Part shown: positions 21 through 64,000 of the stretch, piece by piece
Layout of the letters: the number at the start of each line of letters is the position of its first letter
Position numbering within the stretch: the stretch's first letter is position 1
From: Branchiostoma floridae
Lineage: Eukaryota; Chordata; Leptocardii; Amphioxiformes; Branchiostomatidae
DNA length: 64,000 bases
Assembly: GCF_000003815.2 (NCBI RefSeq)
Contig: NC_049994.1
Span: forward strand, 11,751,376-11,815,375
Direction: 5' to 3'
Made by a program: the position numbers and the translations under genes
Notes under the pieces: generated by a model
Told to the model about the DNA's origin: nothing
The model's database searches: none
The model's input: only the letters and a program-made list of their open reading frames with translations

Positions 21-3000
21 TCCTCCTCTTAAGAGAGTGGTGAACGAAACAGGACCGTTCGTCTCCCAGTGTTATACCTACTTTCCAACATGCAATAATC
101 CAATAGGAATGGAGAACGGCAACATTCCGGATCATCAGATTAAGGCCTCGTCGTACAAACCCGAGTTCGGAGCTCACAAGTCCCGTCTTAATCTAAAAGG
201 TGCATGGATCAGCGAATCAAGCATACCGGGTAAAGAATGGCTGCAATTGGACATGGGAGAGGTACGCATCGTCACAGCTGTACTTACGCAAGGCCACGGC
301 CTTAGTAGTGAGCAGAGTTGGGTGGAAACGTATTCCTTATCTTTTAGCATCAACGGAATCAAGTGGTGGCACTACAAAAACGCCACCACCAACGAGGTCG
401 TTGTGTTCAAAGGAAACGACGATGGGGAAGCTATTCAACACCAGCATCTTCCAAGGGCGGTTGTGTCCAGATACGTTCGGTTTTATCCGGCTAGGTTCGT
501 AAACAATATGGCGTTGAGAGTGGAGCTAGTTGGCTGTACGCTTGACGAGTGTGACATCAAGCAAGACATCAAGGGCGTCAAGTTGTTCAATCAAGGTTCA
601 CTGGTGTGCAAAACGTATGAATGCATCAATGGAAAGGGCCACACCTACAGAGGAACTAAGAATGTGACGATGAACGGCCTACCATGTCAGAGGTGGAACA
701 CGGATGATCCAAACCCCCACTGCTATTCTCAGACAAAGTAAGGAATACATTTTGAATTTATACACAGGCAATACTTACATCACAAGATAAATGGATATTA
801 CCACAAAACACAGTAAAACTGTGAGCTATTATTTTCATTTCTATAACGACTTAGTGTTCATCTTCATGTTACATATACAGATCATCCTTCCAACAGTAGG
901 CATTAGTCCCCTTGAACACAGACGTGGCCAGGTATCGACTTCAAAGTAACGTTGACCCTGTCATGTATTTTATCCGGTAGCTATATTTTAGTCAGTAAGT
1001 AAATCGCAGATGCACAGTTTACTTTTTAAAAACATACTCTCTGCCCCAAGACCTATCAACCGCTCAAAAATCACGACCGAAGAAAGTACAAAACTCGAGA
1101 TATCGAACCGCTGCAGTACCATAGCAAGTCCCTAGGGAGCCCAAAATCTAAATGTGTCAAGGTCTCATCAAGACCTAACCACGTACAAATCTCAAGACAA
1201 TACATCCAGGCATTATGGAGTTATGATGGTCAACTACACACATAGACACAAACACTACGGAAAACATAACCCTTTAGCGAAGTTAAAAATGTTATACGTT
1301 CTTTTGTTCTATCAGGTACCCCCACCGATGCCTGGTCCACAACTACTGCCGTAACCTGCTGGATGACCCGACCCCCCGGCCCCGTCCCTGGTGCTACACC
1401 TCGGAGAAGTCGGAGAAAGGCTGGGAGTTCTGTGAGATCGAGCAGTGTGAGCTGGCCAGGAACAACCTGGGCTTCATCGGTGTGGAGGGCGAAGGGGACT
1501 GGGCAGGTAGGATCAGACGGCACCTTGTTTGGGTCACTTGGTCACTTTAGATATAAGGGTACATTACACAATAGTGGTGGTATCTCACTGCACTTGGGGC
1601 ACCGGTGCGACACTGCGGGGTTCGTTCACTGCGGCACTGTTGTTATTTTCGCCATCAACTTCTATAAGTTAGATATTGCGTAATACGTTAAGTATTACTT
1701 AGAATACAAAATACACAAAACGTAAGAAAATTAGTTCTCTATCTCTGAAATTTGTTGAGAACCGCACCGGTGCCCCAAGTGCAGTGATATGCCACTTATA
1801 TCTGACCTCCGTATGGGCCAATCTACATTACAAGCACGTGGTCTTGTTTAGAAAGTCGCAATTTTTCTGAACAGACTTACCACCAGGCCTTTGTGATACC
1901 CGCAATCCCACTAGATGATGTAGTTTCTTTGTTAGAAAAAACACACAACAACTAAAAAAGTACTTTTAAATGGTAATGGTATACAATGTCATGTACGTGC
2001 AACATAATGAATATGATCTCAACCAGATAATTTCCGACTGGACTAGAGTTTTGCTGTGTCTTTGCTGACATTTGATGTAATCAGCTGGAGATTTGAGTAA
2101 AAATATAGGTGTGCGCGTATGGGCAGAACGTATAGGTTTGAAATTGTGATAGGTGAAATTTGATCATTGCTACCAGAAGGTACCTCGCTCACAGTATGAA
2201 TGTGCAAATGGGTTGCTGACACTTTTAAAATACTGTTTCATAGGTGAGAATAAGAGCACCTCACACTTTGCCACGTTCACATTATCCCCATCAATACAAG
2301 TAAAAAGTGATGCCTTAAATTTCTAATCTCACTTTCAAGTGACATTTCCAATACAACATACGTGCCCTCACGGAAATGAGGTTCACTGCAATAGCCAATA
2401 CCACGGGGTGACACAAACCGTATTTGACACGTTAACGGCAAGGCCTGGTTTGTCTTCATGATGTTGTAATCTTCTCGGTGATTGCATGGGGACCCGGAGA
2501 CCCCTCGGTGTGTGATAACTGTCGGCTCCTGGCGCCGGGTCAACAGGAAACGGAATTACTGCACGTCCTGGCGTAACCTAACGGCCGTCATTTCCTTCTA
2601 GTTGTTATCGGTGGGGTCATTTCCCACATAGAGACCGCGTTGGGCATTAATCTTTATGTCCGAACTGTCAGACTACCTTGTTGATCGCTCAAAGGCCATT
2701 TTCAATCTATTGGCAACAGACCATCTGTGACCAACCATTTGCTCCGTCTTCAAAATGTAACACACACATACTTTGTTTTGGAATTAGGACACTTCTTTTT
2801 CACATTCCATTTTCGACTTCGATGATTTTACGATAACCCGACATTTCCCACGTAGAGACCGTGTTGGGTATTTATCTTTATGTTCGCACTGTCAGACTAC
2901 TTGTGGACTATTTTCAATCTATTGGTAACAGACCATCTGTCATTGTCAATCTATTGGTAACAGACCATCTGTGACCAAACTATTTGCTTCGTCTTCAAAA

Positions 3001-6000
3001 TATAAGACACACATACTTTGTGTAGGAAGTAGGACACTTCTTTTTCACATTCCATTTTCGACTTCAATGGTTTTACGATTACCCGTTGAAAGCGGTCAGC
3101 ACCATATTACAGTATTATCAATAAACCATAATTAACCTTGCTCATGTATAATAGACTTTTGTGTGCCGTTTGCACGTAGGGTTCATCTCCAATTCCTTCA
3201 CGGACGACTACAGTGATATTTCCGACATCTCCACGGCCTCTAAGGAAGAAATCGATGAGCTGGGGCATCAGAAGGAAGACTTCGTGCTCCAGTGCACCTT
3301 CGACAAGCGGAGGTGCAAGTTGAGAGAGCTGCACAAGTTCCAGAACTCCAAGTTTGGGAACTGCTACACCTTCAACCCCGGCATGGGCATACAGGACGAG
3401 ATCAGCACAATGAAGTCAGGCGCGCGTTATGGACTGAAGATGACATTATTCGTCCGTAATTAATCGATGATATGTTCTTTTTATGACTAGTTTTGAGTCT
3501 CGTTTCATTGGAGTCATTGCCATTTTCAAAAGATCATTAAATTCATGATGATAACACTCTTGTTCAATGTGATATCGTGAGTGAAACACTTAAAAATTTA
3601 TTAAACGTCCGATCCAATGTCAAGCACTATGTCATCTTTGTCGGTATGGCACTTTCCGACCCACCCACATTTGACACCCTGGTGCTCGATTTATGAATTA
3701 ACAATCATAGTAAAAAGCTTACCATTGTCAAAGGTAATAAATATTCATTCCAATGATACATCATGAAAGGTAATTTATAAAATAAACATGGGATAATAAA
3801 ATCAGGTTTCCAAACTTTTTGCAGTTCTATTACCTAGAAAACTGTATTTGAGTTTTTAATTACATAGTCATGACGGTATTACTAATTAAATGTATTTGTG
3901 CAATCATTGATGGACATTCAAGATGACTTTTTGTGTTTCAGAGAAAAATGAGTATGTAGGAATTTTTGGACAAGAGCCAGGCGCCACAGTCACCATTCAC
4001 CCGGTGAATATGACGCCCTTTCCCGAGGACCACGGCTTGATCCTCCGGCCAGGAGAGAGTACTTTCATCGGAATAAGGTTAGAAATTATATCAAAACTGT
4101 ATGTAAAGATTACTAAATACCAAAGAAAGACCAGATGTTAAAGGGTAAAATGTTAGGTAATAGTACTATTGAAAAATTTGTTACTATAGTTTGTTGCTGC
4201 TGTATTAATCATGTGTGAAAAATGTACGTGATAATGTGAAAGCGATCTTGTGACTTTTATGTCAAAAAGCTATATATAATATAAGTTACTTTGACTGAAA
4301 AAGCGGTCTTACATATCATTTATTGGCCATCGATAACCAAAGTGATAACTTACAGTAGGCATAGGATGGAAAGGTCACGGGATCGACTCTTGCTTTGGCG
4401 TTAATTAGCTCTCCGTTCTGACAAGGCCATACCTTTTTCTTACATCTTTTTCCAGAAAGAAAGTGGTCCAGCGTTTACAGTACCCATACGGGGACTGTAT
4501 ACACTCCACGGAAGAGTTTGATTCCTTGTACGGAGGTTCCTACTCCTTCTTGAGTTGTCAGAAGACGTGCCTGCAGAGAGCGATTCTCGACAAATGTGAG
4601 TGCACAGACGAGCTGGTGACCGGCAGCGACTCTGGGATCTGCAGCGTCTTGAACAGCACACAGGTAACTCAGATGTTCCAAAGTTTCTTGCTACCGTGTA
4701 CTAGTTCACCATGCGTTCTCACATGCTTAGATCCATCAAGGGATACCTGATGGCCTGGGTACCATCCTCCGTCTGAGTTACTACGGATAATGGCTCACCT
4801 TTTGTCGAAAAGGGAGAACCAGTGGTAACTACGGAGAATAAAACCAGGCCAGAAAGGTTACTGATTTGAGTTGTATAACCCTGTTAATACAGTATACATA
4901 AATACATAAACTAATATATCCTTAAGTCTTGAGGGTGGGGGCTGTGCTGCAGTTTGAGTCAGCCTCCTGGTTCCAAACAGTTCCATTGGATGGAATGTTA
5001 ACGTTTTCCTTCACTTCTAACTTGTAACACTGCTTATTTCAGGAGCGATGCAGACGTAGCCAACGCCAACTGTTTGACGATGACGAGATCAGGTGTAACT
5101 GTAAGCAGAGCTGTAGGGTAAGTCATGTTTTGTTGTATTTGTTCAGTTTACACGATGTGGTAAAGGTTGATGACTTGCGTTATGGTCCTCCGTTGTAACG
5201 AATCTTGTACAAAACGACGTGCTATACATTAATGTGGCATGGTTTGTCCGCCAACAAACTGATAAGCATACTAAGCTACACTTAACTGTGTGCCAATGCG
5301 TGTGATATTTTATATCCAACATATATTTGCCTCACTGCGCTCAATATTACTGGTCACACAAAATACACTATAAACTGTCCTGAACTATAACATTCAGAGC
5401 ACGCTCTATGAATGGCATATCAAGATGCAAAAATGGGGTCGGGGGTCACATTGGTTCCCCATTTCAGACGACATTGTACAATTTAACATAAACAATTAAA
5501 CATAACTTACATTGGAGACCGCACTCTCACCGTGGCGTCACCTTGCGAAGAGAGAAATAATTCCAGTCATTTTAGCTCTCGGGAAGATATCTGACTTTTC
5601 CGAAATGTTGTGTACACACACACACACAAAAAACGCACAGTATCGTACGGCATTATGAAAATGAATCAACCTGCAATGCACGTAGGCCATATGGCACAAA
5701 CATTTGGCTGTATGAAATGCGAGTTCTTGTTAGGAAATTTATCGCTCTATTGCGCCACTTTGCCCAGCTTTTAAACATATATACGACTCGATGAACAATG
5801 CATCAACTGTAGCAGATACTTTGTATACTTAGTGTCTTTATCATTGTGTACCTATATTTATAAGACATGTGTCATATTACCTCCCAGGATGAGGTCTACA
5901 ACATATGGATGTCGTCATCAACATGGCCGTCAGATAACTACCTGCCGTACGTGCTGCAGAACATCCACAGCCGCAGCCGCGCCAAGAACCTGCCCAGGAC

Positions 6001-6823
6001 GGCCGAGGAAGTCAAGCAGAACCTGGTCCGGCTCCATGTGTACTTCCAGGTAACTCTAAATGTCAAATAGAAGCTTTAATAAGACTTTACTATCGAAAAC
6101 ACGTGCATATGGAGGTAAATCTCTAACATAATACTCAGTCTCTACCATACTATTCTACATATACATGACAGAGTAGGAACCATATTATACTAAACTCTCT
6201 GGCAGTTTCTCTACATACCTGGCCTATTTCTACTGGTTACCCAGTTACCAACTCACTGAAGGGTCTGGTGGATACTCAAAATCATAATGGAAACTAGAAG
6301 TTGAGTGAACTCTTTTAATCATCTTCTGTATGTTAGGATAATCCTTTGAATTGGCAGATTCCCTGGTGTTTCGGATTCAATAGACTACGAGTTCAAGAAT
6401 ACATTCTATAGCTACATTGTAACTATTTCATCTTACCTCTTTTTTATATCATGAGTCAAAATTTTGCAGATACAGAATCTTCATGTTTTTTTTTTCTTCT
6501 TCAATTTTTAGGAACTCACGTTTGAAGAGATCCGGGAGCATGAGGGATATCTGTTTGAAGAACTCCTGAGCGGCATCGGAGGCCTGTTAGGGCTGTACGT
6601 CGGGATTTCAGTCATCACCATCTTTGAGGTGCTGCAATTTGGTTGTGAAATTCTGAGAGCTCTCTTCCGAAAATGGAGGAGGAGCAAAGTGGCCGACCGG
6701 GTCAAGAAGAAGACAGTTTCCAAAGATGAGGACTATCATCCTTCCGCCATCTTTTATGAAGTAGGGGACAAAAATATGACGTATAACGAACCTTATCGTC
6801 CTACCAAAGAATACTTCCTTTGA
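21..6823 (+). CDS. DEG/ENaC (ASIC-like) cation channel with discoidin and kringle domains, 5' end outside window
   Basis: Eight exons join in frame: 21-737, 1316-1506, 3180-3455, 3942-4077, 4456-4663, 5043-5117, 5888-6049 and 6512-6823. They give 691 residues plus stop, and the N-terminus lies left of the window. Visible residues about 25-175 form an F5/8C discoidin domain (CNNPIGMENG, W-QLD, RYVRFYP). Residues about 195-290 form a kringle with the typical NYCRN and PWCYT blocks. From about 303 the DEG/ENaC extracellular core follows (CTFDKRRC, GNCYTFN, QKNEYVGIF, YPYGDC, a Cys-rich thumb). The last exon holds the pre-TM2 segment and TM2 with GGLLGLYVGISVITIFE, where GIS matches the family's G-x-S filter. 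A basic cytoplasmic tail follows. TM1 is not visible and must be upstream if the channel is complete, which would place the two extra modules inside the extracellular loop. Family membership is secure; ligand and gating are unknown. Confidence 0.9.
1577..1795. mobile_element. MITE family 2, copy 1 (intron of channel gene)
   Basis: A roughly 220-bp element with inverted ends (left GTGGTATCTCACTGCACTTG, right the complement ending GTGATATGCCAC). The inner parts of the ends are GC-rich, with GGGGCACCGGTGCG. Related copies lie at 40841-41089 and about 48490-48730. No protein is encoded, so it is a non-autonomous DNA element. Confidence 0.75.
2620..3085 (+). repeat. Tandem direct duplication of about 220-240 bp
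   Basis: Copy 1 (about 2620-2840) and copy 2 (about 2843-3085) share the same order of blocks: TTTCCCAC-TAGAGACCG, CAATCTATTGG-AACAGACC, CACACATACTTTGT and CACATTCCATTTTCGACTTC. Copy 2 has an extra internal repeat of the CAATCTATTGGTAACAGACC block. It lies in the intron between the kringle exon and the channel core. Confidence 0.8.
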
Positions 6824-6903
6824 AGAAAAAATAAAGGCCTCTTAGAATGAAAATAAATAGCATTGCTCAAAAAATGTAATGAATATACATTCAGGTATCT
6901 TGG

Positions 6904-6909
6904 AATAAA
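6904..6909 (+). terminator. Likely poly(A) signal of the DEG/ENaC gene
   Basis: This AATAAA hexamer lies about 80 bp after the stop codon. Further AATAAA copies at 6830-6835 and 6852-6857 are too close to the stop to be first choices. Confidence 0.45.
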
Positions 6910-7532
6910 GTATTGAATTGCAAAAAAAATAGAAAAATACCTGCACCCCTCAGGCGTTGCCAAAAGTTACGTATAGCATACAATTGTATTGTCATTGATA
7001 AATTAAATGGGCAGAAAAAAATATAAGCTTATGAACTAAATTAAATTGACAATAGATTTTCATCGATATTGTACGTCAACACCTTAAAATTATGTGTTGT
7101 GTTAGTGCTGAGTCTCTCAAATATTTCACATACTTCAACATTCCTCACATCACATCTGTGATTCTAACACATTGCAGGCCTGTGGTCTTACAGATAAGAA
7201 AATATCATTAAAGAATAGCATTTATTAGCTGCATGATAATCTTGAAGTCATAAACAACAGGGTACGTGTGGTATATTGGTGTACAGAATTTGATATATAC
7301 GATTGATGAAGAAACTGAGTATCCTATATATCATATGTGGCATTATATGTGGCATGCTTGATATTGTAGGTTATATTTGTGGTATATGTATACGAGTCCA
7401 GCTTGTAGCCTTAGCTTAGGACATATATACATGTATTGTAGCAATGTTATACGATAACCATATACGAATGGGACATTTCAGCAAGACTCTGTACATACAA
7501 TGTACATGTACTCTATAGTGTACGGCATATAT

Positions 7533-9883: not shown

Positions 9884-12800
9884 ATGGCGCAGCAGGTGGA
9901 GCTGAACGCGCTGAACCTTCAGCAGCTGGAAATGCTGAAAAATCAGCTGGATCAGGTCGGTATGCAGCACATGAAGGGGTATCTCATCATGTGAAGTCTA
10001 CCAGCAATACGTTTAGCACGACAAAAGTGGTTGATGTTTGCCGTAGAGACAGAAATAGCACTCCCTCTGTGATGAGGGTGGGTTGGGTTTAGGCATGGAG
10101 TGGGGAGGGGGGTAGGACGAAATGGAATTCTGTAACGGTACAAAATTTGTATCTTTCGTCTTAAGTTATACGTGGATATCTTAAGACTATATGATTGGAA
10201 TTCAGTGTAGAAAAGGCAATCCATCGTACCTTTCGCAACAATTTCACAATATGAAAAAGTAGTGTGAGGAACTATGAACACAAATATTTATGGGCATAGC
10301 CATATGACAAGTGTAACATGGGGAGGGTCTTTTTAGCGAATGCCCACAAACGCCCACTCTAGAGAAGTCCGCGCTGCACGAATCTCATTTTTTTTGCTTG
10401 GAATATGTCCACGTTGTGCTCCCATGTATTAATCCTGAGTTTCAAGTCAATCCATTGACCCGAAGTGACATAAATCAAAGTTTTCGATTCTCGATGGTCT
10501 TTTTAGCGAACGCCCAGCAAAATGTCTTTTTAGCGAATGCCCACTATATCCACAAAAATATCGGCCGTCGCGCAACGACACCTAAACCTACCGCCACAAA
10601 CATGTTCAAGATGGTGTCCCATTGATGTGTACGGAGTTTCCGTGCTTTACAAGCATTTTAAGTCCCTGTTTTTGGTCAAAATGTACGGCGACGATACTAC
10701 CATACTTTAACTATAGCAATTCAAAATGGCGGGCACTAGTCATGTGACCTCCTTGCGAGACTGTTCTATAAGTATCGCGGGAGGGACTGTTGTAGCATAG
10801 CTTCTCATACAACCATTTTAGAGTGAATTCTGAACAAGATTTTCATTTCATAGTGCTATCATCTGACTGATATTTACAATGTGGTCATTTCTTCTGTGCT
10901 ATTATTACCCAGGTTTGAGGAACTTAGTGCAAATATGGATATTGTTTCACCTCAGTGTCTCGGACACATTAGTGGTATAAACCTGAATAGGGGCAGGTAA
11001 CCAATACTAGAAAAACGTAGCTATTTATTATTAACAATACTATTTACATTATAATAATAACTCTTCACCAAACTGGACTTTTCTTATCTTTATCTATCAC
11101 AGAAACATTGTTACAATGAGGATTTGATTAGATGAGTATCTGTTACAGTGTGTACAAACTTATTTCAAATACAAAAATGTATTTCGTTTCACTTCCTAAA
11201 TATTTTTAAAGTATTGGAAGAAGTTGACACATAAACAATATTAATTGCATTATTTATGTGCAATAAAATGTGACCACATGCTATCAATAGCCTAATAAAA
11301 TGTTGGAACATGGCACAAGCGGGCTCCTCTTCTGAGTACAGAAAGGAAATGTTTTATAACATTTAGTTATGACGTAGAAAATTTCAATTGTAAAATGTAC
11401 CTTTATTAACATTTACAAACAAATTGTTTTTTTCTCTTCTTAATAAATGACAACAATACAGGTAAGTAAGGTGTGTTTCCTTTTATAACAGGCCAGGTAA
11501 GACGCCAAACAGGTAAGTAAGGTGTGTTTCCTTTTATAGCAGACCAGGTAAGACACCGTACAGGTGAGTAAGGTGTGTTTCCTTGACTACAGACTAGGTA
11601 AGACACCTTACAGGTGAGCAACGTGTATTTCCTTTCATTACAGACCAGGTAAGACACCGTACAGGTGAGTAATGTGTAGTTCCTTTGATTACAGACCAGG
11701 TAAGACACCGTACAGGTGAGTAAGGTGTATTTCCTTTGATTACAGACCAGGTAAGACACCGTACAGGTGAGTAAGGTGTGTTTCCTTGACTACAGGCCAG
11801 GTAAGACACCATACAGGTAAGTAAGGTGTGTTTCCTTTTATAACAGACCAGGTAAGACACCGTACAGGTTTTGTAACGTGTATTCCCTTTGATTACAGAC
11901 CAGGTAAGACACCATACAGGTGAGTAACGTGTATTTCCTTTGTTCACAGACCAGGTAAGACACCGTACAGGTGAGTAACGTGTATTTCCTTTCATTACAG
12001 ACCAGGTAAGACACCGTACAGGTGAGTAAGGTGTGTTTCCTTTTATAACAGACTAGGTAAGACACCGTACAGGTAAGTAACGTGTATTTCCTTTCAGTAC
12101 AGACCAGGTAAGACACCGTACGGGTGAGTTTCCTATTATAACAGACTAGGTAAGACAACATACAGGTAAGTAACGTGTATTTCCTTTGATTACAGGCCAG
12201 GTAAGACACCATACAGGTAAGTAAGGTGTGTTTCTTTTTATAACAGACCAGGTATGACACCGTGCATGTGAGTAACGTGTATTTCCTTTGATTACAGACC
12301 AGGTAAGACACCATACAGGTGAGTAATGTGTATTTCCTTTCATTACAGACCAGGTAAGACACCGCACAGGTGAGTAAGGTGTATTTCCTTTGTCTATAGA
12401 CCAGATAGGGTATTACACAGGTGAGTAAGGCGTCTTTCCTTTGCCTATATACCATATAGGCCATTATACAGGTGAGTAAGGGGTCTTTCCTTTGCCTATA
12501 GACCAGATAGGGTATTATGCAGGTGAGTAAAGCAACTTTCCTTTGCCTGTAGACCAGATAGGGTATTATACAGGTAAGTTAGGTGTCTTTCCTTCGCCTA
12601 TATACCAGATGGGGCATTATACAGGTAAGTAAGGTGTCTTTCCCTTGCCTATATACCAGATAGGCCATTATACAGGTGAGTAAAGCGTCTTTCCTTTGCC
12701 TGTAGACCAGATAGGGTATTATACAGGTAAGTTAGGTGTCTTTCCTTCGCCTATATACCAGATGGGGCATTATACAGGTAAGTAAGGTGTCTTTCCCTTG

Positions 12801-15800
12801 CCTATATACCAGATAGGCCATTATACAGGTGAGTAAAGCGTCTTTCCTTTGCCTATAGACCAGATAGGTATTAAACAGGTGAGTAAAGCTACTTACTTAC
12901 CTGTATAATGCCCTATCTGGTCTATAGGCAAAGGAAAGACGCCTTACTCATCTGTGCGGTGTCTTACCTGGTCTGTAATCAAAGGAAATACACGTTACTC
13001 ACCTGTACGGTGTCTTACCTGGTCTGTTATAAAAGGAAACGTACCTTACTTACCTGTATGGTGTCTTACCTGGCCTGTTATCAAAGGAAATACACGTTAC
13101 TCACCTGTATGTTGTCTTACCTGGTCTGTAAACAAAGGAAATACACGTTACTCACCTGTACGGTGTCTTACCTGGTCTGTGAACAAAGGAAATACACGTT
13201 ACTCACCTGTACGGTGTCTTACCTGGTCTGTGAACAAAGGAAATACACGTTACTCACCTGTATGGTGTCTTACCTGGTCTGTAATCAAAGGAAATACACG
13301 TTACTCACCTTTATGGTGTCTTACCTGGTCTGTAAACAAAGGAAATACACGTTACTCACCTGTACGGTGTCTTACCTGGTCTGTAATCAAAGGAAATACA
13401 CGTTACTCACCTTTACGGTGTCTTACCTGGTCTGTTATAAAAGGAAACACGCCTTACTTACCTATATGGTGTCTTACCTGGCCTGTAGTCAAGGAAACAC
13501 ACCTTACTCACCTGTACGGTGTCTTACCTGGTCTGTAATCAAAGGAAATACACGTTACTCACCTGTACGGTGTCTTACCTAGTCTGTAGTCAAGGAAACA
13601 CACCTTACTCACATGTACGGTGTCTTACCTGGTCTGTAATCAAAGGAAATACACGTTACTCACCTGTACGGTGTCTTACCTGGTCTGTAATGAAAGGAAA
13701 TACACGTTGCTCACCTGTAAGGTGTCTTACCTAGTCTGTAGTCAAGGAAACACACCTTACTCACCTGTACGGTGTCTTACCTGGTCTGCTATAAAAGGAA
13801 ACACACCTTACTTACCTGTACGGTGTCTTACCTGGCCTGTTATAAAAGGAAACACACCTTACTTACCTGTATTGTTGTCATTTATTAAGAAGAGAAAAAA
13901 ACAATTTGTTTGTAAATGTTAATAAAGGTACATTTTACAATTGAAATTTTCTACGTCATAACTAAATGTTATAAAACATTTCCTTTCTGTACTCAGAAGA
14001 GGAGCCCGCTTGTGCCATGTTCCAACATTTTATTAGGCTATTGATAGCATGTGGTCACATTTTACTGCACATAAATAATGGAATTAATATTGTTTATGTG
14101 TCAACTTCTTCCAATACTTTAAAAATATTTAGGAAGTGAAACGAAATACATTTTTGTATTTGAAATAAGTTTGTACACACTGTAACAGATACTCATCTAA
14201 TCAAATCCTCATTGTAACAATGTTTCTGTGATAGATAAAGATAAGAAAAGTCCAGTTTGGTGAAGAGTTATTTTTATAATGCAAATAGTATTGTTAATAA
14301 TAAATAGCTATGTTTTTCTAGTATTGGTTACCTGCCCCTATTCAGGTTTATAACACTAATGTGTCTGAGCCTTTTGTACATTAAATTGGGCACTGAGGTG
14401 AATCAATATCCAAATTTGCACTAAGTTCCTCAAACCTGGGTAATAATGGCACAGAAGAAATGACCACATTGTAAATATCAGTCAGATGATAGCACTATGA
14501 AATGAAAATCTTGTTCAGAATTCACTCTAAAATGGTTGTATGAGAAGCTATGCTACAACAGTCCCTCCCGCGATACTTATAGAACAGTCCCGTAAGGAGG
14601 TCACATGACTAGTGCCCGCCATTTTGAATTGCTATAGTTAAAGTATGGTAGTATCGTCGCCGTACATTTTGACCAAAAACAGGGACTTAAAATGCTTGTA
14701 AAGCACGGAAACTCCGTACACATCAATGGGACACCACCTTGAACATGTTTGTGGCGGTAGGTTTAGGTGTCGTTGCGCGACGGCCGATATTTTTGTGGAT
14801 ATAGTGGGCATTCGCTAAAAAGACATTTTGCTGGGCGTTCGCTAAAAAGACCATCGAGAATTGAAAACTTTGATTTATGTCACTTCGGGTCAATGGATTG
14901 ACTTGAAACTCAGGATTAATACATGGGAGCACAACGTGGACATATTCCAAGCAAAAAAAATGAGATTCGTGCAGCGCGGACTTCTCTAGAGTGGGCGTTT
15001 GTGGGCATTCGCTAAAAAGACCATGCGTGTAACATGTACTATGATGTAGCTTAGGACATGTGAAAAATGCGAAGAAAATACACTATATGACAGGAAGCGC
15101 AGGAATAGGTTGGGATCAGTATAGTTCTATTCAAAGAATGGGTGCAACAGCAGCGGTCCACTTACACTGTAACAAGCCTAATGTATGCGTGAGGTTGTGG
15201 GTTTTATCCCGTGTTACAACATTCTACTTGCTTGGCCGAGATTAGAACTCTGACTTCCAGGTCCAAAGGCAAGGCTGACCTCACTTAATATCCCAATCAC
15301 ACCACCATATGATCTCTTTGTGATGATATGTCGATGTTTGATAACTGTTTCAGGAAACAGAGATGTTTGCTGGCTCGCTGCAGTCCCTGAAGGCAGCTCA
15401 GCAGAAGTTTGTGGAATCCCAGCAGAACCTAGACACCCTCACACCCAGTAATCAAGGTGGGCAGTGGAAAATTGTAACCTGGTATAGCTGTGTGAACATA
15501 TATATAGCCAGTAGATGATGCTTGGAAAGATTCAGAGCCCAGCTGTAGGCTGGAATCCTTTAACAGTTTTAACAGTTGCAACTCACATGCAACTGTCACT
15601 ATGTCAGGCAGACAAAATTGAACAATATCATAATATTTGCTCTGTATCAGCAATATGCTAACATCCCTCTGGTTACACTACTGCTGATAATACTTGTAAG
15701 TAATGTATTGAAAAAAGACATGTGTTTTTGAATGAATAATATGATGTACTAATAGTAATATGTTGTTTTCCTTTTACAGGGAAGGAGATCCTGGTACCTC

Positions 15801-23100: not shown

Positions 23101-26100
23101 TAACTGTTACATGTTGCTCTGGCCATTCAGGATGGGGATGTAAAAGCTTAAGCGATCAAAATCTTCCCCTATAAGTGTTTATCATTCAAGTTGTGTGCTA
23201 CCTTTCTCTGCAGCTGACGGCTTGAAGACGGTAGCGGTCAGCAGCTACCAGGATATCGAGAACAGGATGGAGGAGGGGACCAAGAACCGTACGGTCGCCG
23301 CCACCAACATGAATGCCACGTCCAGCCGTGCGCACACCATCGTGGGTATCAAGTTCACACAGAAGTACCAGAATGCAGCGGGGGAGGAGACGGCAAAGAG
23401 CTCTGTCATCAACCTGGTGGACTTGGCTGGAAGGTAGGGTGAACAAAAGATAGAAAAACAGAAAGAAAGGAAGGAAAAAGAGACAGTGATGGAGCAAATG
23501 ATGTTTTAAATGGATAGATGGAAGGAGTGAGTGAGATCACTGGGACTAAAACTTAAAGGAAAAAGGGTTCAAAGAGAGTGCAAAATAAGGGAAAAGTATG
23601 AAAATGGACAGCAAAGTAGTAGCAGTGGGATCAAAAGAGGACAATTTTTAAAATGGCTTTGTCTGGAATGAGGGGGAAGAAATATATGAAGAAATAGCAG
23701 AGAGTCCACATATCATACTTCTACAATAAGCAACATGTAGAAATAGAACAGGTAATTTAAAAAAAATGGCTGTTGGTGACACATGATCACATCTGACCAA
23801 TGAGGTTTGCTGTTCCCCAGTGAGAGAGCTGAGAGCACAGGTGCGACAGGAGACAGGCTGAAGGAAGGGGCAGCCATCAACCAATCGCTGTCCTCCCTTG
23901 GCAATGTCATCTCAGGTAAGGAAGACAGTTTGAATCTGTGATATGGACAGAATAAGAAATGATTATTTTTGATGCCATTTCATGCTGAAGGCATTTAACG
24001 TTAGTTCACCTTTATCTGTGGGGTAACCTATATCTGTTGTGTTGCTAAAAGGGTAATAGACCGGGATGTCAAGTCGATGGACGGTTAGTTTCAAATTGTA
24101 CCATTTTTAAAATATTGCAGTTTGAAACCACCATATGTCGACTTGATATCCATAAATACATTGTTCTTGAAAAGAACGGATAAAGGTTACCCTATGGATA
24201 AAGGTGAACTAGCGTTAATGTAGATGTCAGATGCTTCAACCCTTTACAGACTCGGTCCATGGTTAATCAGACCAACTCAACCCAACAACCTGGTCAACTT
24301 GGTCCAACACCATAAGGCCATCATTAACCCTAACCATAATCATAACCCTAACCCTAACCTTTATAATTTTGACTTGACCAGAGTGTTGGACCAAGTTGAC
24401 CGGTCCGAGTTGGTATGTTGTAATGTAAGGTGTAATGTTGTAGTGTTTGGTTTTATACACTTGAATTGTTGTGAGTTCATGTCACTGTACGTAACCTTTG
24501 TGTTTATTTTGCTGTCTTTAGCCCTGGTGGATAAGGCCAATGGGAAGAAGGTTCGGGTGCCGTACCGTGACTCCACACTGACTAAACTGCTGAAGAATGC
24601 TCTGGGAGGGAACAGCAAGACTATCATGGTAGGGGGCGCTTTTCTGGCTCAGAGTCTTCAACAAATGCTCATGACATGTTTTAATGTTAAGGAAAATAAG
24701 GGAAATCTAATAAAAGATATTTAGAAAAAAATCTAAAAAATGGAAGTACATTCAATTTGTATATTGAACGTATTCTTAATGCTTGACAGTATGTAGATGC
24801 CTCATGTATACAGGAAGCAATGAATACTAACAATTTCTCCTCACTAAGGCTAAAACAGTAAAAGTGATCTTTTTGTATAATGTTTGTGTCTGTATTAGAT
24901 TGCAGCTATCAGCCCTGCAGATATCAACTATGATGAGACCTTATCAACCCTCAGATATGGTATGTAAAATATTCATTACCTTTGAAGGTTGATACATGTT
25001 ATCTGATGTATCTAACAACTGTAGGGACATAATTCATGGCAACTAATTGACATGAAACATATCAATATCAACATTTATGTTAGTTTGGTAGGACTACACA
25101 TTTTGTTATTGTCTGCCTACTGAAAGCTTGTGTTTTGATTCAACTTTTGTCTCTTCTTCTGTCCTCTGTGTTTGCGAGAGGACAGAAGAGACTTAGAGGA
25201 TATAATATGGCTGAATACCAGGCTACCTTTTGTTCTGGGGTTCAGCTATTTTGAGCAAGATTTTAATAGATTTTTGCGACTTTCACAGCTGACCGAGCAA
25301 AGCAGATCAAGACAAAGGTGGCAGTGAACGAGGACCCGACAGAGAAACTGATCCGTGAGCTTCAGGAGGAGAATGAGAAGCTGAAGAAACTCCTGGAGTC
25401 TGGAGGAATCCCAACTAAACTGGACGATGATTCTGATGATGAAGACGAGGAAGATGTTAAGTCACTGTCCAAGGATGGTTGGTTGAAAACTATTTTTTAC
25501 CTAGTAGAAACAGGATGTTTTGTTTATTTGGGTGTCTGTTTGTCTGTGTGCCTTTCTGTACTTATTTCCATGTTAAGCACATTAGGGGCACTGACAGGAA
25601 GTCAGGTCAAAGGTTCCAGAAAGGCCCCAAAATAGGTTGTGGTTTCCTGTCTTCAGTTTACTGCCACGTGGTTGTGTACGCATTAGAGTTGCATACTGTA
25701 CTAAGGCCACAGCAAGTAAATTTTATGGGTGACATCAACCTTTAATTTTCGCCTGATTTCAGAAAGGAGATGCTCAACATGATGAGAAAGTACCAAAATT
25801 GGAAAGTGTCGTAGCGTAAAGATTGTACCTGTAGAAGTGACATTAGCAAGGCAGCCATGACTACAGTAGTTATAGAAGTGAAACCAGCTGGATAGTTGTA
25901 AAAGTGTCACCATCATGGAAGTCATGAGTATAGTCAAAGAGATGTACTGAAACTTGTCCATGCTGTCTCCAGAGCGTGAGAGAATCCGTAAGGAGATGGA
26001 AGAGGAGATGCAGGCCCGAATCCTGGCCTCCCAGCAGGAGATGGAGGAGATGAAGAAGACCTGGGAGGAGAAAATGAAGCAGAGCCATGAGTCGGGTCCC

Positions 26101-35100: not shown

Positions 35101-38100
35101 TGCAGTCTATGGTGTTACCATGAAATTAAAACCACCGCAAAAAGTAATTTTTCCCGCTACCGCAAAATTAAATCCCCGCGAACTTAAATGCATTTACAGT
35201 ACTACTCTGACCAAAGCTAATACTCGTTAATAGTGAAGTGAATAGTAAAAGAATTGTACTATAACAGCTGTACTTTTAAACCACTGTATTAGGATGGAGT
35301 CTGCCCTCTCTGATTGAAAAAAAAATCATTGAAGGGGCCACACCATGCCAGACTCTAATGTTTCACTCGGGAGGAGCAATATTAAGATCCTATGGAAGGT
35401 CATTCTACCCAAATCCAATGAAATATCTTGGAAAGTCCTTTTGAAATTCCACAATTTCTTATGGGATCTGTATCTATATAATATTGGTATTACACATACA
35501 TTTGTGTAGTCAGTATGAGTACACTGTGGCGTGACACACCAGCTTCACATATTTTGAAAGATGTAATGTACATGTACATGTACATTGTTGTTGTATATCA
35601 TACAAATGCCCACTGCCCAATATGAAAAAGCCAAAATATTCTACATGAAGAATGTGGGCTTTTCACAGAAGAAGTACTTAGTATCCTAGTGTCCTGAGTA
35701 AAATGACATAATTCCCAATCATAGCTAGAAGAAAGGATGTGCCACCCTACAAGGGGTAGTATACCTGTAACATCAATGTTGCTGTGATACACCATATGAA
35801 ACTTATACTATCTCCTGTGGTTTCAGGAGCTGGACTACCTGCTGAATGGCTCCATCTTTGTGCAGCTGTTTGGGAAGCAGGTGCCAAAGAAACGTGAGGG
35901 GAAGAAACTCAACACCAAACAGATCATGAAGAAGGAGGGCATGCTGAAGGGGAAGGACATTGGAGCTGAAAATGTGCCCAAGCATGTATGTTATTATGCT
36001 ACTAAATATCTATTTTTTTAACTTTTATTTAACCTTACTAGCAATTAATTATACCGTCCATTTATGGAGACAAATTATATCTAACTTTAGACCTAACATC
36101 GACTATCATAATTCCACCAGGTGCCATAATACCGCCATATCAAAAAACGTTAGTATAAAGGTCTTCCCAAGATTGTCTTGAACACCGAATGTTAGATATC
36201 CTAAATGTAATACAATTTAGATATCTAGGTGTTGAAGATAGTCTTGAGAAGGCCTCTATAACAATGTTTGTGGAGGTGGCGGTATAATGGCACCTGGTGG
36301 AATTATGCAAATGTATGTTAATAATTTTGACCAGTAGTTATAACACCAGTTCTCCTTTATCCGCAGGGTAACCTACATCCATTTTATTTGATATATGGTA
36401 CCTGGGGATATATGTCAAGTTGACTGAATGTGGTTTTAAATGGTCATATGTTAAGAATGGTGCAGTCCGCCGTCCGTCGACTTGATATCCCTGAATAACA
36501 TGTTCTTAAAGACAACGGATGTAGGTTACCCCCACTATAAAAGTGAACTAGCGTTACATGAAAAATTGAGCTGATCCGAAAATGTAATAAGGAAAAATAC
36601 ATTGTATTTTGTTTGCAGACTGTGGATGAAGGCAAGGTTGGGTATCAGTTCCAGGTTTTGACGCTCAAGAAGAGACTGGAAAGGCTGGAGAAGAAGATGG
36701 TAAGTCACACTCTAGATAGTCTTAACCATTCTTGGTTTACAAGATCTTCCTGGTTTATAACAATGTAGTTGCCTCCATTTTAAAGTATCATTTTACATAA
36801 CAGTATATGTAGTCAAATGTTGAGCATACAAGCAAATGCCTGTTATTTGCAAAATAAGCCCTTTCAAAATGTGTCTAGAGCATATTATATTACATGCCAA
36901 ATAGCAATTACTCGAGCAGCTGGATCTGATTTTGGAAAATCATATCCAGTTGCTTGAGTAATTAAGTTAACGGTGTTACTATTTGTCATATCTTGTTACC
37001 TGGATGTGTAACCTTTCTAGATGTATTCTTTGATATGTTTGTGTCTTTAAAACTTTTCTTCAGGCCCAGATGAACAGAGTGGTGGATGTGGCAGAGAAGT
37101 CTAGTAAGATGCGTGTGAAGACGGACACTATTAAGACGGTTCTTCGTGCCAAGAACCCTGACGCTATAGAGAAAGCCATCAAGACAATTCCAAAGGACAA
37201 GGGGGCAGGAGACAATGGTAAGAATTAGGTCCGTGATTCATCAACTGTTTTTCCTGTAAATCTGCTAACGATGCTTGTATTTTCCCCCAAAAAAGTTAAT
37301 TATAAGAAAATAAATACCAGATTAGTCAGTTACAAGTAGTTATGCTAGTTCACCTTTATCCGCGATGTTACATTTATCCGTTGTATGAAAAATTGGAGAA
37401 TTTAGGGATATCAAGTCGGTTGATGGTTGTTTTAGACGGGAATGCTATGAAAATATTGCAATTTGAAACCATTGACTAGATATCCGTAAATACCTTGCTT
37501 TTAAAACAGCGGATATAGGTTACCATGCAGATAAAGGTGAGCTGCCGTTAACAATAGTCAAATATTGCTACAATATTTCTCATTGTCTTGTGAATTCCAT
37601 GCCAGACATGGATGTTGCTGCTACTGGAGTGCCCCCAGAAGGTACTAATTAGTTACAGAAAAGCAATGAAGGCCCCCCCCCCACACACACACACAACCCA
37701 ACCCTTTATGATCCTGTACACACCTTAGCATTGTTGCTAAAGGACAATCCGCTACCCTGTACTATCCAATACCATAGTGCTGAAAGACCTTCCCTACCCT
37801 GTACTTTCCTGTATCATCCCCAACTTTAGTGCAGAAGTACCTTCCCCACCCTGTACTGTCCTATACACTCCCCAGCCTTAGTGCAGAATGGCAATTCCCC
37901 CCTTATACTGTCCTGTACTCTCCCCAGCCTTAGTGCTGAATGGCAATCCCCACCCTATACTACCATGTATCCTCCCCAGACTTAGTGCAGAACGGCAATC
38001 CCCACCCTATACTAACGTTTACCCTCCTCAGCCTTAGTGCTGAATGACCCACCCCACCCTATACTATCCTGTACACTTTCCCCAACCTTAGTGCTGAAGT

Positions 38101-39152
38101 GCCTTCCCAACACTATACTATCCTGTACGCTTTCCCCAACCTTAGTGCTAAAGTGCCTTCCCCACCCTATACTATCCTGTACACTTTCCCCAACCTTAGT
38201 GCTGAAGTGCCTTCCCCACCCTATACTATCCTGTACACTTTCCCCAGCCTTAGTGGTGAAGTGCCTTCCCCACCCAGTACTATCCTGTACACTTCCCCAA
38301 CCTTCGTGCTGAAGTGCCTTCCCCACCCTATACTATCCTGTACACTTCCCCAACCTTAGTGCTGAAGTGCCTCCCCCACCCTGTACTGTCCTGTACCATT
38401 CCCAACCTTAGTGCTGAGGTACCTTCCCCACCCTATACTATCCTGTACACTTTCCCCAACCTTAGTGCTGAAGTGCCTTCCCCCACCCAGTACTATCCTG
38501 TACACTTTCCCCAGGCTTAGTGGTGAAGTGCCTTCACCATCCCATACTTTCCTGTACACTTTCCCCAACCTTAGTGCTGAAGTACCTTCCCCACCTTACA
38601 GGGTTATATACATTTTCCCCAGCCTTAGTGCTGAAGTGCCTTCCCCACCTTACATGGTTGTATACATTTTCCCCAGCCTTAGTGCTGAAGTACTTTCCCC
38701 ACTCCATAATATTCTGTACTGTACTCAGCATTAGTGCTAAAGGACCTTCCCCCCTGTACTTTCCTGTACAATCCCCAGCCTAAGGGAGAAGGACTTAATA
38801 TTTCCATTAATACATCCTAATAATAGTCCTGGAAGACTCTAATGATGCTTACAAGCTGTCAGGGTTTACAGCAGATGTTCAATTTTCAAATTAGATATGA
38901 GTTATTCATATGTTGTAAAATCATACATAACGGTTACATAAATACATCATCATCATCATCATCATCAAACATCTTCATTCAAGCTAATTCAATAGATGTC
39001 TATACTCTATTAGTCTATAGATACCGTGGACAATGATATGCTGTATGTATCCTGAATTCTTACAATATGCTTTGATCTGTTGTTGATTCTTTACAGAAGG
39101 GGTAAATGGCCAGCCACAAAGCCAAGAAAGTGCCGCCTGTACCCTCCTGTAA
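20119..39152 (+). CDS. Kinesin-3 family motor, KIF28/KLP-6-like
   Basis: At least 23 exons join in frame: 20119-20166, 21208-21399, 21785-21917, 22423-22502, 22631-22745, 23214-23433, 23821-23915, 24522-24628, 24899-24959, 25289-25477, 25973-26282, 28165-28302, 29852-30012, 30716-30864, 32374-32508, 33006-33089, 33640-33702, 34345-34491, 34763-34885, 35827-35985, 36619-36699, 37064-37217, optional 37606-37641, and 39097-39152. The product is 999 or 1011 residues. It is a plus-end microtubule motor by family. Residues 1-350 are the motor: [17 protein letters not shown]-loop GQTGSGKS, switch I NATSSRAH (most kinesins have SSRSH), switch II DLAGSE, and [12 protein letters not shown]. Coiled coils follow ([29 protein letters not shown]). 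Next are an FHA domain ([20 protein letters not shown]), a C2-like region ([16 protein letters not shown]) and a short coiled coil. The start is the ATG matching kinesin-3 N-termini. The exact subfamily is from memory. Confidence 0.9.
20167..21207 (+). other. U12-type AT-AC intron in the kinesin motor domain
   Basis: The intron begins ATATCCTTTT, an exact match to the U12 5' splice site, and ends CACAC. CCTTAAC lies about 10 bases before the end, as expected of a U12 branch site. Splicing joins VRVRPF to NKREKARN, the contiguous kinesin-3 motif. No GT-AG pair near either border gives that join. Confidence 0.9.
22893..23095. mobile_element. MITE family 1, copy 2 (kinesin intron)
   Basis: Ends AACTCTAGTTCACCTTTATC and GGATAAAGGTGAACTCAAGCG, with GATATGAAGTCGACGGACG inside. 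Confidence 0.8.
23997..24216. mobile_element. MITE family 1, copy 3 (kinesin intron)
   Basis: Ends AACGTTAGTTCACCTTTATC and GGATAAAGGTGAACTAGCGTT, with GATGTCAAGTCGATGGACGG inside. Confidence 0.8.
24271..24414. mobile_element. Small inverted-repeat element with telomere-like core
   Basis: The left end ACCAACTC, later GGTCAACTTGGTCCAACAC, is mirrored by GTGTTGGACCAAGTTGACCG and GAGTTGGT on the right. The centre (about 24314-24360) is built of CCCTAA-type units (AACCCTAACCCTAACC). Confidence 0.7.
28764..29640. mobile_element. DNA-transposon-like element with 19-bp perfect inverted ends
   Basis: CATTGGCATAATACCGGTC at 28764-28782 is exactly reverse-complemented at 29622-29640. The inner sequence (877 bp in all) has no convincing transposase frame. 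Flanking direct repeats are not clear. Confidence 0.65.
30340..30700 (+). pseudogene. LINE 3' fragment in kinesin intron
   Basis: One frame reads [20 protein letters not shown], then a block with [13 protein letters not shown] and an RLYN end. This is the typical C-terminal stretch of CR1/L2-like reverse transcriptases. A noncoding tail with AATAAAG follows. It ends just upstream of the exon at 30716. Confidence 0.6.
31562..31585 (+). other. Possible 24-bp alternative micro-exon of the kinesin
   Basis: The stretch is preceded by a pyrimidine-rich TTACCCTGTTATAG and followed by GTACTATC. It is phase 0 at both ends and would insert PPQRRPPE between two exons that also join in phase 0. Weak donor; speculative. 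Confidence 0.2.
33150..33362 (-). mobile_element. tRNA-derived SINE (kinesin intron)
   Basis: Read on the minus strand, a tRNA-like head (GCGTGGCGTAATTGGCAGTG, B box AGGTTTGAACCCTG) is followed by GTGCCCTTGGGAAAGGCACTT. The tail contains the complement of ATTTAACGTCCTATC. The same parts recur at 56230-56712. Confidence 0.7.
33950..34320. mobile_element. Degenerate MITE family 1 remnants
   Basis: About 33950-34160 keeps GGTTACCTTTATCCCAGAGG and GATATACATGAGTAGGTTAC in family order but no clean ends. A second right-half remnant (GATATAGGTTACCCCACAGA) lies at about 34283-34313, just before the exon at 34345. Confidence 0.5.
34990..35201. mobile_element. MITE with TACTGTAAATGC ends (kinesin intron)
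   Basis: TACTGTAAATGC at the left is mirrored by GCATTTACAGTA at the right, 212 bp in all. Inside, GTTCGCGGTGG and CCGCGAAC motifs recur in both orientations. Confidence 0.75.
36107..36307. mobile_element. Near-complete palindrome, fold-back MITE
   Basis: CATAATTCCACCAGGTGCCA at the left is mirrored at the right, and pairing continues inward almost to the centre near 36205 (AGATATC..TAGATATCT). The RNA would form a hairpin with arms of about 95 bp. Confidence 0.8.
36342..36555. mobile_element. MITE family 1, copy 4 (kinesin intron)
   Basis: Left end AACACCAGTTCTCCTTTATCC, right end AAGTGAACTAGCGTT, inside CGTCGACTTGATATCC. It starts 35 bp after the palindrome at 36107-36307. Confidence 0.75.
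37342..37549. mobile_element. MITE family 1, copy 5 (kinesin intron)
   Basis: Left end ATGCTAGTTCACCTTTATCC, right end CAGATAAAGGTGAGCTGCCGT, inside GGGATATCAAGTCGG. Confidence 0.75.
37606..37641 (+). other. Optional 36-bp exon of the kinesin
   Basis: Preceded by CATGCCAG and followed by GTACTAAT. It has phase 1 at both ends, so inclusion adds 12 residues ([12 protein letters not shown]) without changing frame before the last exon. Confidence 0.5.
37720..38790 (+). repeat. 54-bp minisatellite in the last kinesin intron
   Basis: About 18-20 units with a 54-bp period (for example, the TAG of CCTTAGTGCT at 38143 and 38197). A unit contains CCCCACCCTATACTATCCTG, TACACTTTCCCCAACC and TTAGTGCTGAAGTGCCTT. 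Outer units are more diverged. As 54 is divisible by three, several false reading frames of 18-residue repeats appear on both strands. Confidence 0.9.
38947..38967. repeat. (CAT)n microsatellite
   Basis: About seven CAT triplets in the last kinesin intron. Confidence 0.85.
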
Positions 39153-63179: not shown

Positions 63180-64000
63180 TTGTCCTACACACCTTCATGC
63201 CGAATTTTAGGTCATTTGGTTTCAATATAAGGGCATAGGAGCCAAATATATACATTTTTTAGTTAAAAATGGCTAAAAGTCCCAAAATAACTCATTTTAT
63301 GAGTGCTCTATGAAGAAAGTGTTGATGTAGTCCTGTTGTCATAAGTCCAATTTACCTTTCTACCAAATTTCAGGTCATTTGGTTTACATACAAGGGCATA
63401 GAAGCCAAAAATATACATTTTTAGTCAAAAATGGCTGAAAACCCCAAAATAACTAATTTTTTAAGTGATCTATGAAGAAAGTGTTAATGGGGTCCTGTGA
63501 GCATATGTTCAATGCACCTCTGTACCAAATTTCAGGTCATTTGGTTTCTATACAAGGGCATAGGAGCAAAAAATATACATTTTTAGTCAAAAATGGCCAA
63601 AAACCCTAAAATAACTCATTTTTGGAGTAAACATTGAATAAAATGTTGATGGGGTTCTGTGGTCATATGTCAAACGCACCTATATACCAAATTTCATGTC
63701 ATTTGGTTTTAATACAAGGGCATAGGAGCCAAAAATATACATTTTTAGTCAAAAATGGCCAAAACCCCTAAAATAACTAATTATTTCAGCAATCTATGAA
63801 GAAAGTGTTGATGGTTTTCTGTGCTCATATGTTTAATGCACCTCTGTACCAAATTTCAGGTCATTAGCTTGTAATACCAGGGCACAGGGGCCCAAAATAT
63901 ACATATTTTGTCTAAAAATGACCAAAAACCCTAAATATCATAAATTCTAAGGCCTCTATCAAGAAAGTGAAAAAAACGCCTGGGGGTATTTGCCAACTCT
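63180..64000. repeat. 162-bp tandem repeat, continues past the window
   Basis: GTCATTTGGTTT-type anchors occur at 63211, 63374, 63536, 63698 and 63860, a spacing of 162-163 bp. Each unit also holds CAAGGGCATAG, AAATATACATTTTTAGTC and CTATGAAGAAAGTGTTGATG. It lies in the intron upstream of the transmembrane exon. Confidence 0.9.

Follow-up and report, generated by a model that had tools for sequence, protein, structure and literature searches.

A palindromic transposon with arrays of splice-site motifs in intron 1 of PFDN5 in the amphioxus Branchiostoma floridae

Introduction

Tandem repeats have been described in the arms of several mobile elements, which are compared here with a palindromic transposon in intron 1 of PFDN5, within a 64,000-nucleotide stretch of the Branchiostoma floridae genome (NC_049994.1, positions 11,751,376 to 11,815,375; the window, to which plain coordinates refer). 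In root-knot nematodes, the Mutator/Foldback family Tm1 has mainly non-autonomous members, one class of which captured an RNA-processing signal, the histone hairpin (PMC3169594). In Drosophila, the Foldback-like element Galileo belongs to the P superfamily, and the THAP domain of its transposase binds sites in the first two of four repeats (PMC3688188). Inverted repeats have also been described around other genes (PMC2632668).

An initial annotation of the window described a minisatellite in the same intron and read every unit of it as a pair of splice sites. Amphioxus minisatellites with splice signals have reportedly been described since 2002. Introners, a further class of mobile DNA, carry splice sites at or near their ends and are hence spliced out exactly. 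In the amphioxus repeats known as mirages, tandem splice signals have been reported not to disturb splicing (PMC3087553, PMC3902484). No earlier description of the element presented here was found in the literature, with subscription journals and repeat databases lying beyond the search, and it may already be catalogued.

Structure of the element

The two arrays of the minisatellite are not free-standing. They are the inner halves of a palindromic transposon of 4707 bp, which is flanked by a 9-bp target site duplication and consists of the following parts.

10312-10320, no strand: left copy of the target site duplication, TGTAACATG, a perfect 9-bp direct repeat
10321-15027, plus strand: whole palindromic transposon, 4707 bp, defined by inverted arms, the 9-bp target duplication and ends found genome-wide
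10321-10325, plus strand: outermost 5 bp, GGGAG, beyond the inverted repeat, present in 16 copies selected with up to two mismatches per end
10326-11457, plus strand: unique part of the left arm, about 1.13 kb, from the arm alignment
11458-12874, plus strand: minisatellite array of the left arm with 28 units, each about 51 bp long, splice motifs sense to PFDN5
12875-12904, no strand: centre, two partial units head to head, from the unit alignment
12905-13870, minus strand: right minisatellite array, 19 units (18 type A, 1 type B), splice motifs antisense to PFDN5
13871-15022, minus strand: unique part of the right arm, from the arm alignment
15023-15027, minus strand: outermost 5 bp of the right end, ATGCG (CGCAT on the other strand), present in 16 copies selected with up to two mismatches per end
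15028-15036, no strand: right copy of the target site duplication, TGTAACATG, matching the left copy

The long palindrome runs from 10326 to 15022, and outside the arrays its arms are 98-99% complementary. Tandem Repeats Finder placed the two 51-bp arrays at 11457-12863 and 12917-13871. The left array is made up of 18 outer type A units, one of them shortened, and 10 inner type B units, with a further partial unit at the centre; the count of about 28 repeats in the initial annotation was thus accurate, as was its description of the right array as the complement of the left. Its suggestion that an element might sit in the intron is also borne out, since the transposon lies inside PFDN5 intron 1. 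The element that runs around the arrays, from 10321 to 15027, was absent from that annotation.

Long open reading frames cross the arrays (11838-12578 on the minus strand and 12887-13582 on the plus strand), and one of them has a sub-cutoff Pfam match. Such frames stay open because 51 is a multiple of 3, and they are probably meaningless.

Copies across the genome

The element belongs to a family that is spread through the genome (513 Mb in 431 contigs searched). A 361-bp piece of the arm had 226 candidate places, and the 40 that were scored, some of which are the two arms of one element, all had 99-100% identity. The exact 22-bp end matched 117 times per strand and its reversed-pattern control not at all, and the GGGAG end matched 112 times; these figures count ends and not complete copies. 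Exact unit cores numbered 878 (control 0). Among the matches listed (100 of 878), the cores formed 12 clusters, each of which lay beside an element end when compared by eye.

Around copies, 20 loci were fetched, and 17 of them kept both ends (L020, L023 and L024 lacked one). Together with the window this gave 18 two-ended copies. The 9-bp duplication was exact in 15 of these; it had one mismatch in L010, was exact but displaced by one base in L009 and was absent from L025. Units were counted in the 16 copies with at most two mismatches each for the ends and the duplication, which omits L009, L020, L023, L024 and L025. In all 16, one end reads GGGAG and the opposite end CGCAT (at most two mismatches per end allowed), so the outermost five bases lie outside the inverted repeat. 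Both arms carry arrays in 16 of 16, with 4-36 unit matches per arm.

Nine further loci were picked for length or brevity. Arrays were present in both arms of six and in one arm of two (L033, L034), and none was visible in L030, which is largely N. The duplication was exact in L029, L030, L032, L035, L036 and L037, displaced by one base in L034 and absent from L031 and L033. The short copy L033 (G000:C4:7213900-7216400) is more diverged, measures about 1.9 kb and keeps no more of the arms than their outer parts, along with 7 units that all face one way. The larger copies were considered as autonomous members and rejected. In L029, a frame of 1188 amino acids (2503-6069 of that locus, minus strand) is nested in the copy; its last part recurs at 6327-7079, and by eye, no search having been made, it resembles a reverse transcriptase. 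Of the others, L030 is largely N, L032 contains 922 N and the right part of L031 is interrupted.

Over the 16 copies, mean arm identity was 99.0% within an element and 98.6-98.7% between elements. This slight excess of similarity between the two arms of one element suggests that arms may be homogenised. Type B units are usually many in the arm on the GGGAG side and single in the other arm. This distribution is reversed in L011, L018 and L027, so array halves may swap or convert.

The repeat unit and its splice motifs

The unit contains AG/GT splice signals. It is best read as a 3' splice site, a would-be exon of 21 nt, the donor CAG/GTRAGT and a would-be intron of 30 nt. Two types of unit were distinguished. 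Type B has AT at columns 40-41 by definition, and its lack of GT there is therefore no finding. The window has 49 unit rows, of which 46 are near-complete (one shortened unit and the two central partials are omitted), 35 belonging to type A and 11 to type B. All 35 type A units have GT at columns 5-6, AG at 33-34 and GT at 40-41. Among the 11 type B units, AG at 33-34 is present in 6 and GT at 5-6 in 10. The nonamer CAGGTRAGT is exact in 37 of the 46.

The same picture was obtained from 535 near-complete units of the 16 copies (22 of 557 were dropped as incomplete or containing N, and the counts exclude the central unit of every arm). CAGGTRAGT was exact in 422, and the dinucleotides were present in 517 (GT at 5-6), 482 (AG at 33-34) and 385 (GT at 40-41). 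Type B accounts for 136 of the 535, with AT replacing GT at the ACCAG/GT junction, and lies on the inner, central side of the array in nearly all arms. Within these 136, AG was kept in 86 and lost in 50, GT at 5-6 was kept in 119 and CAGGTRAGT was exact in 100. The reading of every unit as a pair of splice sites therefore holds for all 35 type A units of the window and fails for the 10 type B units among the 28 of the left array, which have no ACCAG/GT. Nor is the order of sites preserved in the diverged subtype, as had been claimed: besides that junction, 5 of the 10 left type B units lack the 3' AG.

Upstream of AG at 33-34, pyrimidines make up 79% in type A and 90% in type B. At three PFDN5 3' splice sites the values are 57, 64 and 86%, and in pyrimidine content the unit AG is as good as these. 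Upstream of the CAG/GTRAGT junction (-5 to -18) the value is 36-37%.

Donor strength was scored as base pairing with an assumed 11-nt 5' end of U1. The upstream donor, in its two common forms, pairs at -13.8 and -13.7 kcal/mol and the downstream donor at -11.0 kcal/mol. Three PFDN5 donors score -9.9, -8.8 and -12.5 kcal/mol, so the upstream unit donor exceeds all three and the downstream donor two of them. On the PFDN5 strand, sites at or below -11 kcal/mol number 41 in the left array, 0 in the right array and 8 in the other 59.3 kb, in agreement with the initial assignment of sense motifs to the left array. In the PFDN5 sense, the right array contains nothing that pairs with U1 at -8 kcal/mol or lower. 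The outer arms of the window copy have just two sites of at least that strength on the same strand, one lying 676 bp inward of the left end (-8.0) and the other 270 bp inward of the right end (-9.0). The splice motifs of the unit are real and strong consensuses.

Chance and conservation

In 200,000 random 51-mers, one donor on either strand occurred in 1,317, a donor with a pyrimidine-rich 3' site in 191 and two donors on one strand in 5. MAGGTRAG was present in the consensus unit of none of 49 other tandem arrays (period 12-200, 310 kb examined). Two other minisatellites of the window, at 37771-38770 (54-bp unit) and 63203-63935 (162-bp unit), have no donor motifs. By a rough sum, 49 arrays in 310 kb correspond to tens of thousands in 513 Mb, among which about two arrays with two donors would be expected by chance. 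All units descend from one, and the donors could have had a single chance origin.

The initial annotation proposed to test whether splice dinucleotides are better conserved than other positions of the unit. As a set, the three dinucleotides (six columns) are not, being matched in constancy by 17% of random column sets over the 535 units. Taken singly, the AG at 33 was matched by 33%, the GT at 40 by 61% and the GT at 5-6 by 6.8% of random sets. The upstream donor nonamer passed the test marginally (3.9%, or 0.6% without the +3 position). Among distinct units, however, the donor nonamer ranked 17 of 51 windows with type A alone and 14 of 51 with type B alone. Over all units, the pyrimidine block at columns 19-27 ranked 1-2 of 51 and the donor nonamer 3-4. 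These tests of constancy are weak because neither columns nor units are independent.

The host locus

The host gene is represented in the window by the following exons upstream and downstream of the element.

9884-9955, plus strand: PFDN5 exon 1, coding part, with the donor CAG/GTCGGT, in frame with exon 2
15354-15456, plus strand: PFDN5 exon 2, read in frame with exon 1, its end set directly before the donor GT

The joint translation of the two exons is what we take to be a PFDN5-like N-terminus. A Pfam Prefoldin match (E 9.5e-07) was obtained in the stretch containing a later PFDN5 exon. Intron 1 spans 9956-15353 (5398 nt); subtracting the element and one target copy leaves 682 nt. PFDN5 has on one side exons of a gene of the amiloride-sensitive sodium channel type (Pfam ASC, 4409-6823) and on the other those of a kinesin (23144-23437). 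On the minus strand, 56637-56708 matches Rfam RF00005 (tRNA-like, 35.8 bits).

Interpretation

What the sequence establishes is the element with its ends and target duplications, the genome-wide tally of ends and the frequencies of the motifs. We consider it likely that the element is a young, non-autonomous, palindromic Mutator/Foldback transposon of the Tm1 kind, whose repeats are kept alike and whose splice sites the spliceosome passes over. The element is inserted in PFDN5 intron 1, and each arm ends, on its inner side, in a minisatellite. Its unit carries a near-perfect U1-binding donor; in type A units a 3' site and another donor are present as well. The arm identities are consistent with tandem duplication, together with conversion between the arms, as the processes that maintain the similarity among units. 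If the array has a role, the best guess, by analogy with Galileo, is that it may offer repeated protein-binding sites for transposition.

In PFDN5 RNA the sites are probably silent. Nothing in the DNA sequence indicates that the cell splices at the array repeats. Metazoan splicing generally requires longer pieces than the would-be exons (5 or 21 nt) and introns (30 nt) of the array, and the RNA could in addition fold back on its complement, so the sites are likely ignored. In a predicted fold of the isolated RNA, the GU was paired in 20 of 25 exact left donors, and in 15 of 25 it was paired with the right half.

Several observations weigh against this reading. In constancy the upstream donor nonamer exceeds 96% of random column sets, and its +3 purine is kept in 532 of 535 units, as selection on the donor would also give. 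The unit and the outermost 300 bp of the arm had no common word above shuffles, which speaks against a shared transposase site. Domain searches placed MULE at 27 and FLYWCH at 11 places in the genome, and among the places compared no transposase gene with these ends was found. By eye, none of these places lay inside the element among the matches listed (100 of 234 and 100 of 112 ends; contigs up to C18), and the ends were not found at three MULE loci of 6 kb each (L038 and, with MULE and FLYWCH together, L039 and L040).

The last two loci do contain an element of their own. Two copies of a Phantom-like element of about 4 kb with MULE and FLYWCH, in L040 (G000:C9:6718000-6724000, about 846-4830) and L039 (G000:C19:2133800-2139800), are 98-99% identical in their main aligned pieces and have 9-bp duplications, unequal outer bases and other ends. 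This may be a young autonomous element of foldback type. Its presence in the same genome means that machinery of this kind exists there.

Alternative explanations

The splice motifs could instead derive from a real exon-intron boundary of the element's own gene, such as the first exon of a lost transposase, amplified in tandem in the manner of mirages. Fitting this origin, the entry to the array reads ATGACAACAATACAG/GTRAGT in most of the 32 arms and resembles a brief first coding exon followed by a good donor. It also has a precedent in the amphioxus mirages, described as tandem copies of intron/exon boundaries, many with AG/GT (PMC3087553, PMC3902484). A short ATG frame ahead of a donor is weak evidence, however, and the MULE and FLYWCH places compared offered no transposase with these ends. 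We regard this origin as unlikely.

A second proposal treats the array as a landing strip for the U1 small nuclear ribonucleoprotein. Donors without usable acceptors would shield the insertion from premature polyadenylation, or would titrate U1, and the palindrome would present sense-strand donors in any insertion orientation. The excess of strong sites in the left array over the other 59.3 kb of the same strand (41 and 8) fits this proposal, as do the marginal conservation of the upstream donor and the first donor of the array, whose CAGGTRAGT is intact by eye in 30 of 32 arms. AATAAA occurs at 11262, 11294 and 11442, the last just before the array, but it is expected anyway in DNA of 28% GC. 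The pairing energies are calculated values that use an assumed U1 end, the predicted fold pairs most donors, and among type B units just 100 of 136 have an exact donor. On balance we find a U1 landing strip rather improbable.

More doubtful still is an extension of this proposal, in which the palindrome is a strategy of the transposon for life in transcribed DNA. Because the element is palindromic, donors come first in the sense strand at every insertion, which makes a U1-binding role attractive and testable. Whatever the orientation, a transcript would carry first a long array of near-optimal U1 sites and then their complement. Premature polyadenylation within the intron would be prevented by the bound U1, and units too short for splicing would keep the array silent. 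Were this the case, occasional use of a unit could seed new exons or mirage-like introns, and the element would be a mobile source of splice sites.

Recursive splicing, in which the intron would be removed stepwise through zero-length exons as the initial annotation suggested, is poorly supported and very improbable. The core of a ratchet point, CAG/GTRAGT, is indeed present and repeated, and to this extent the proposed zero-length junction (AG/GTRAGT) exists. The pyrimidine content upstream of that AG, just 36-37%, amounts to no pyrimidine tract, and the right array has no sense U1 site at or below -8 kcal/mol. Spacing of 51 nt would produce introns below the known metazoan minima. Both the missing tract and the small size of the would-be pieces (exons of 5 or 21 nt, introns of 30 nt) argue against stepwise removal of the intron.

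A classic mirage made of tandem copies of a PFDN5 exon-intron boundary, suggested by the same animal group and the same kind of signal, can be dismissed, as the array lies 1.5 kb from exon 1 within a mobile element present at many other sites, and the unit matches none of PFDN5 exons 1-4 or their boundaries above shuffles.

Comparison with known systems

The family offers a natural experiment. The genome holds about 112-117 end pairs, the copies compared are about 99% alike, each copy read carries many near-perfect donors, and at least one copy of the family is intronic. RNA data could show whether the spliceosome disregards such donors, whether U1 binds them with no splicing to follow, or whether they are used on occasion.

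Like introners, the element is mobile DNA with splice sites in an intron. Unlike them, it has its array donors 1.1 kb into the element, and in the first 100 bp at the left end no donor pairs with U1 more strongly than -3.5 kcal/mol. With mirages it shares tandem units with AG/GT splice signals (PMC3087553, PMC3902484). Mirages span an exon-intron boundary of the host gene, whereas this array is intratransposon and unrelated to the PFDN5 exons tested.

Tetris, a Foldback element of Drosophila virilis, is likewise apparently non-autonomous and has internal tandem repeats in its arms (PMC4079207). Its repeats, however, measure 220 bp and also form satellite arrays outside the element (PMC4079207). 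In the amphioxus family, unit cores all lie beside element ends among the matches listed (100 of 878). To our knowledge, 9 bp is not a duplication size of the P superfamily. Galileo also has long arms with internal repeats, but its transposase belongs to a different superfamily (PMC3688188).

The architecture matches Mutator/Foldback elements and comes closest to Tm1. The differences are a unit of 51 bp in place of about 14 bp, arms that meet centrally without a unique middle, a splice-donor consensus in the unit and no transposase member found among the MULE and FLYWCH places compared (PMC3169594). Both have composite arms with variable numbers of tandem repeats and short unequal terminal motifs beyond the inverted repeat, and 9-bp target duplications are found here and in most Tm1 cases (PMC3169594). 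The amphioxus element thus adds to the Mutator-like group a foldback family with an unusual repeat.

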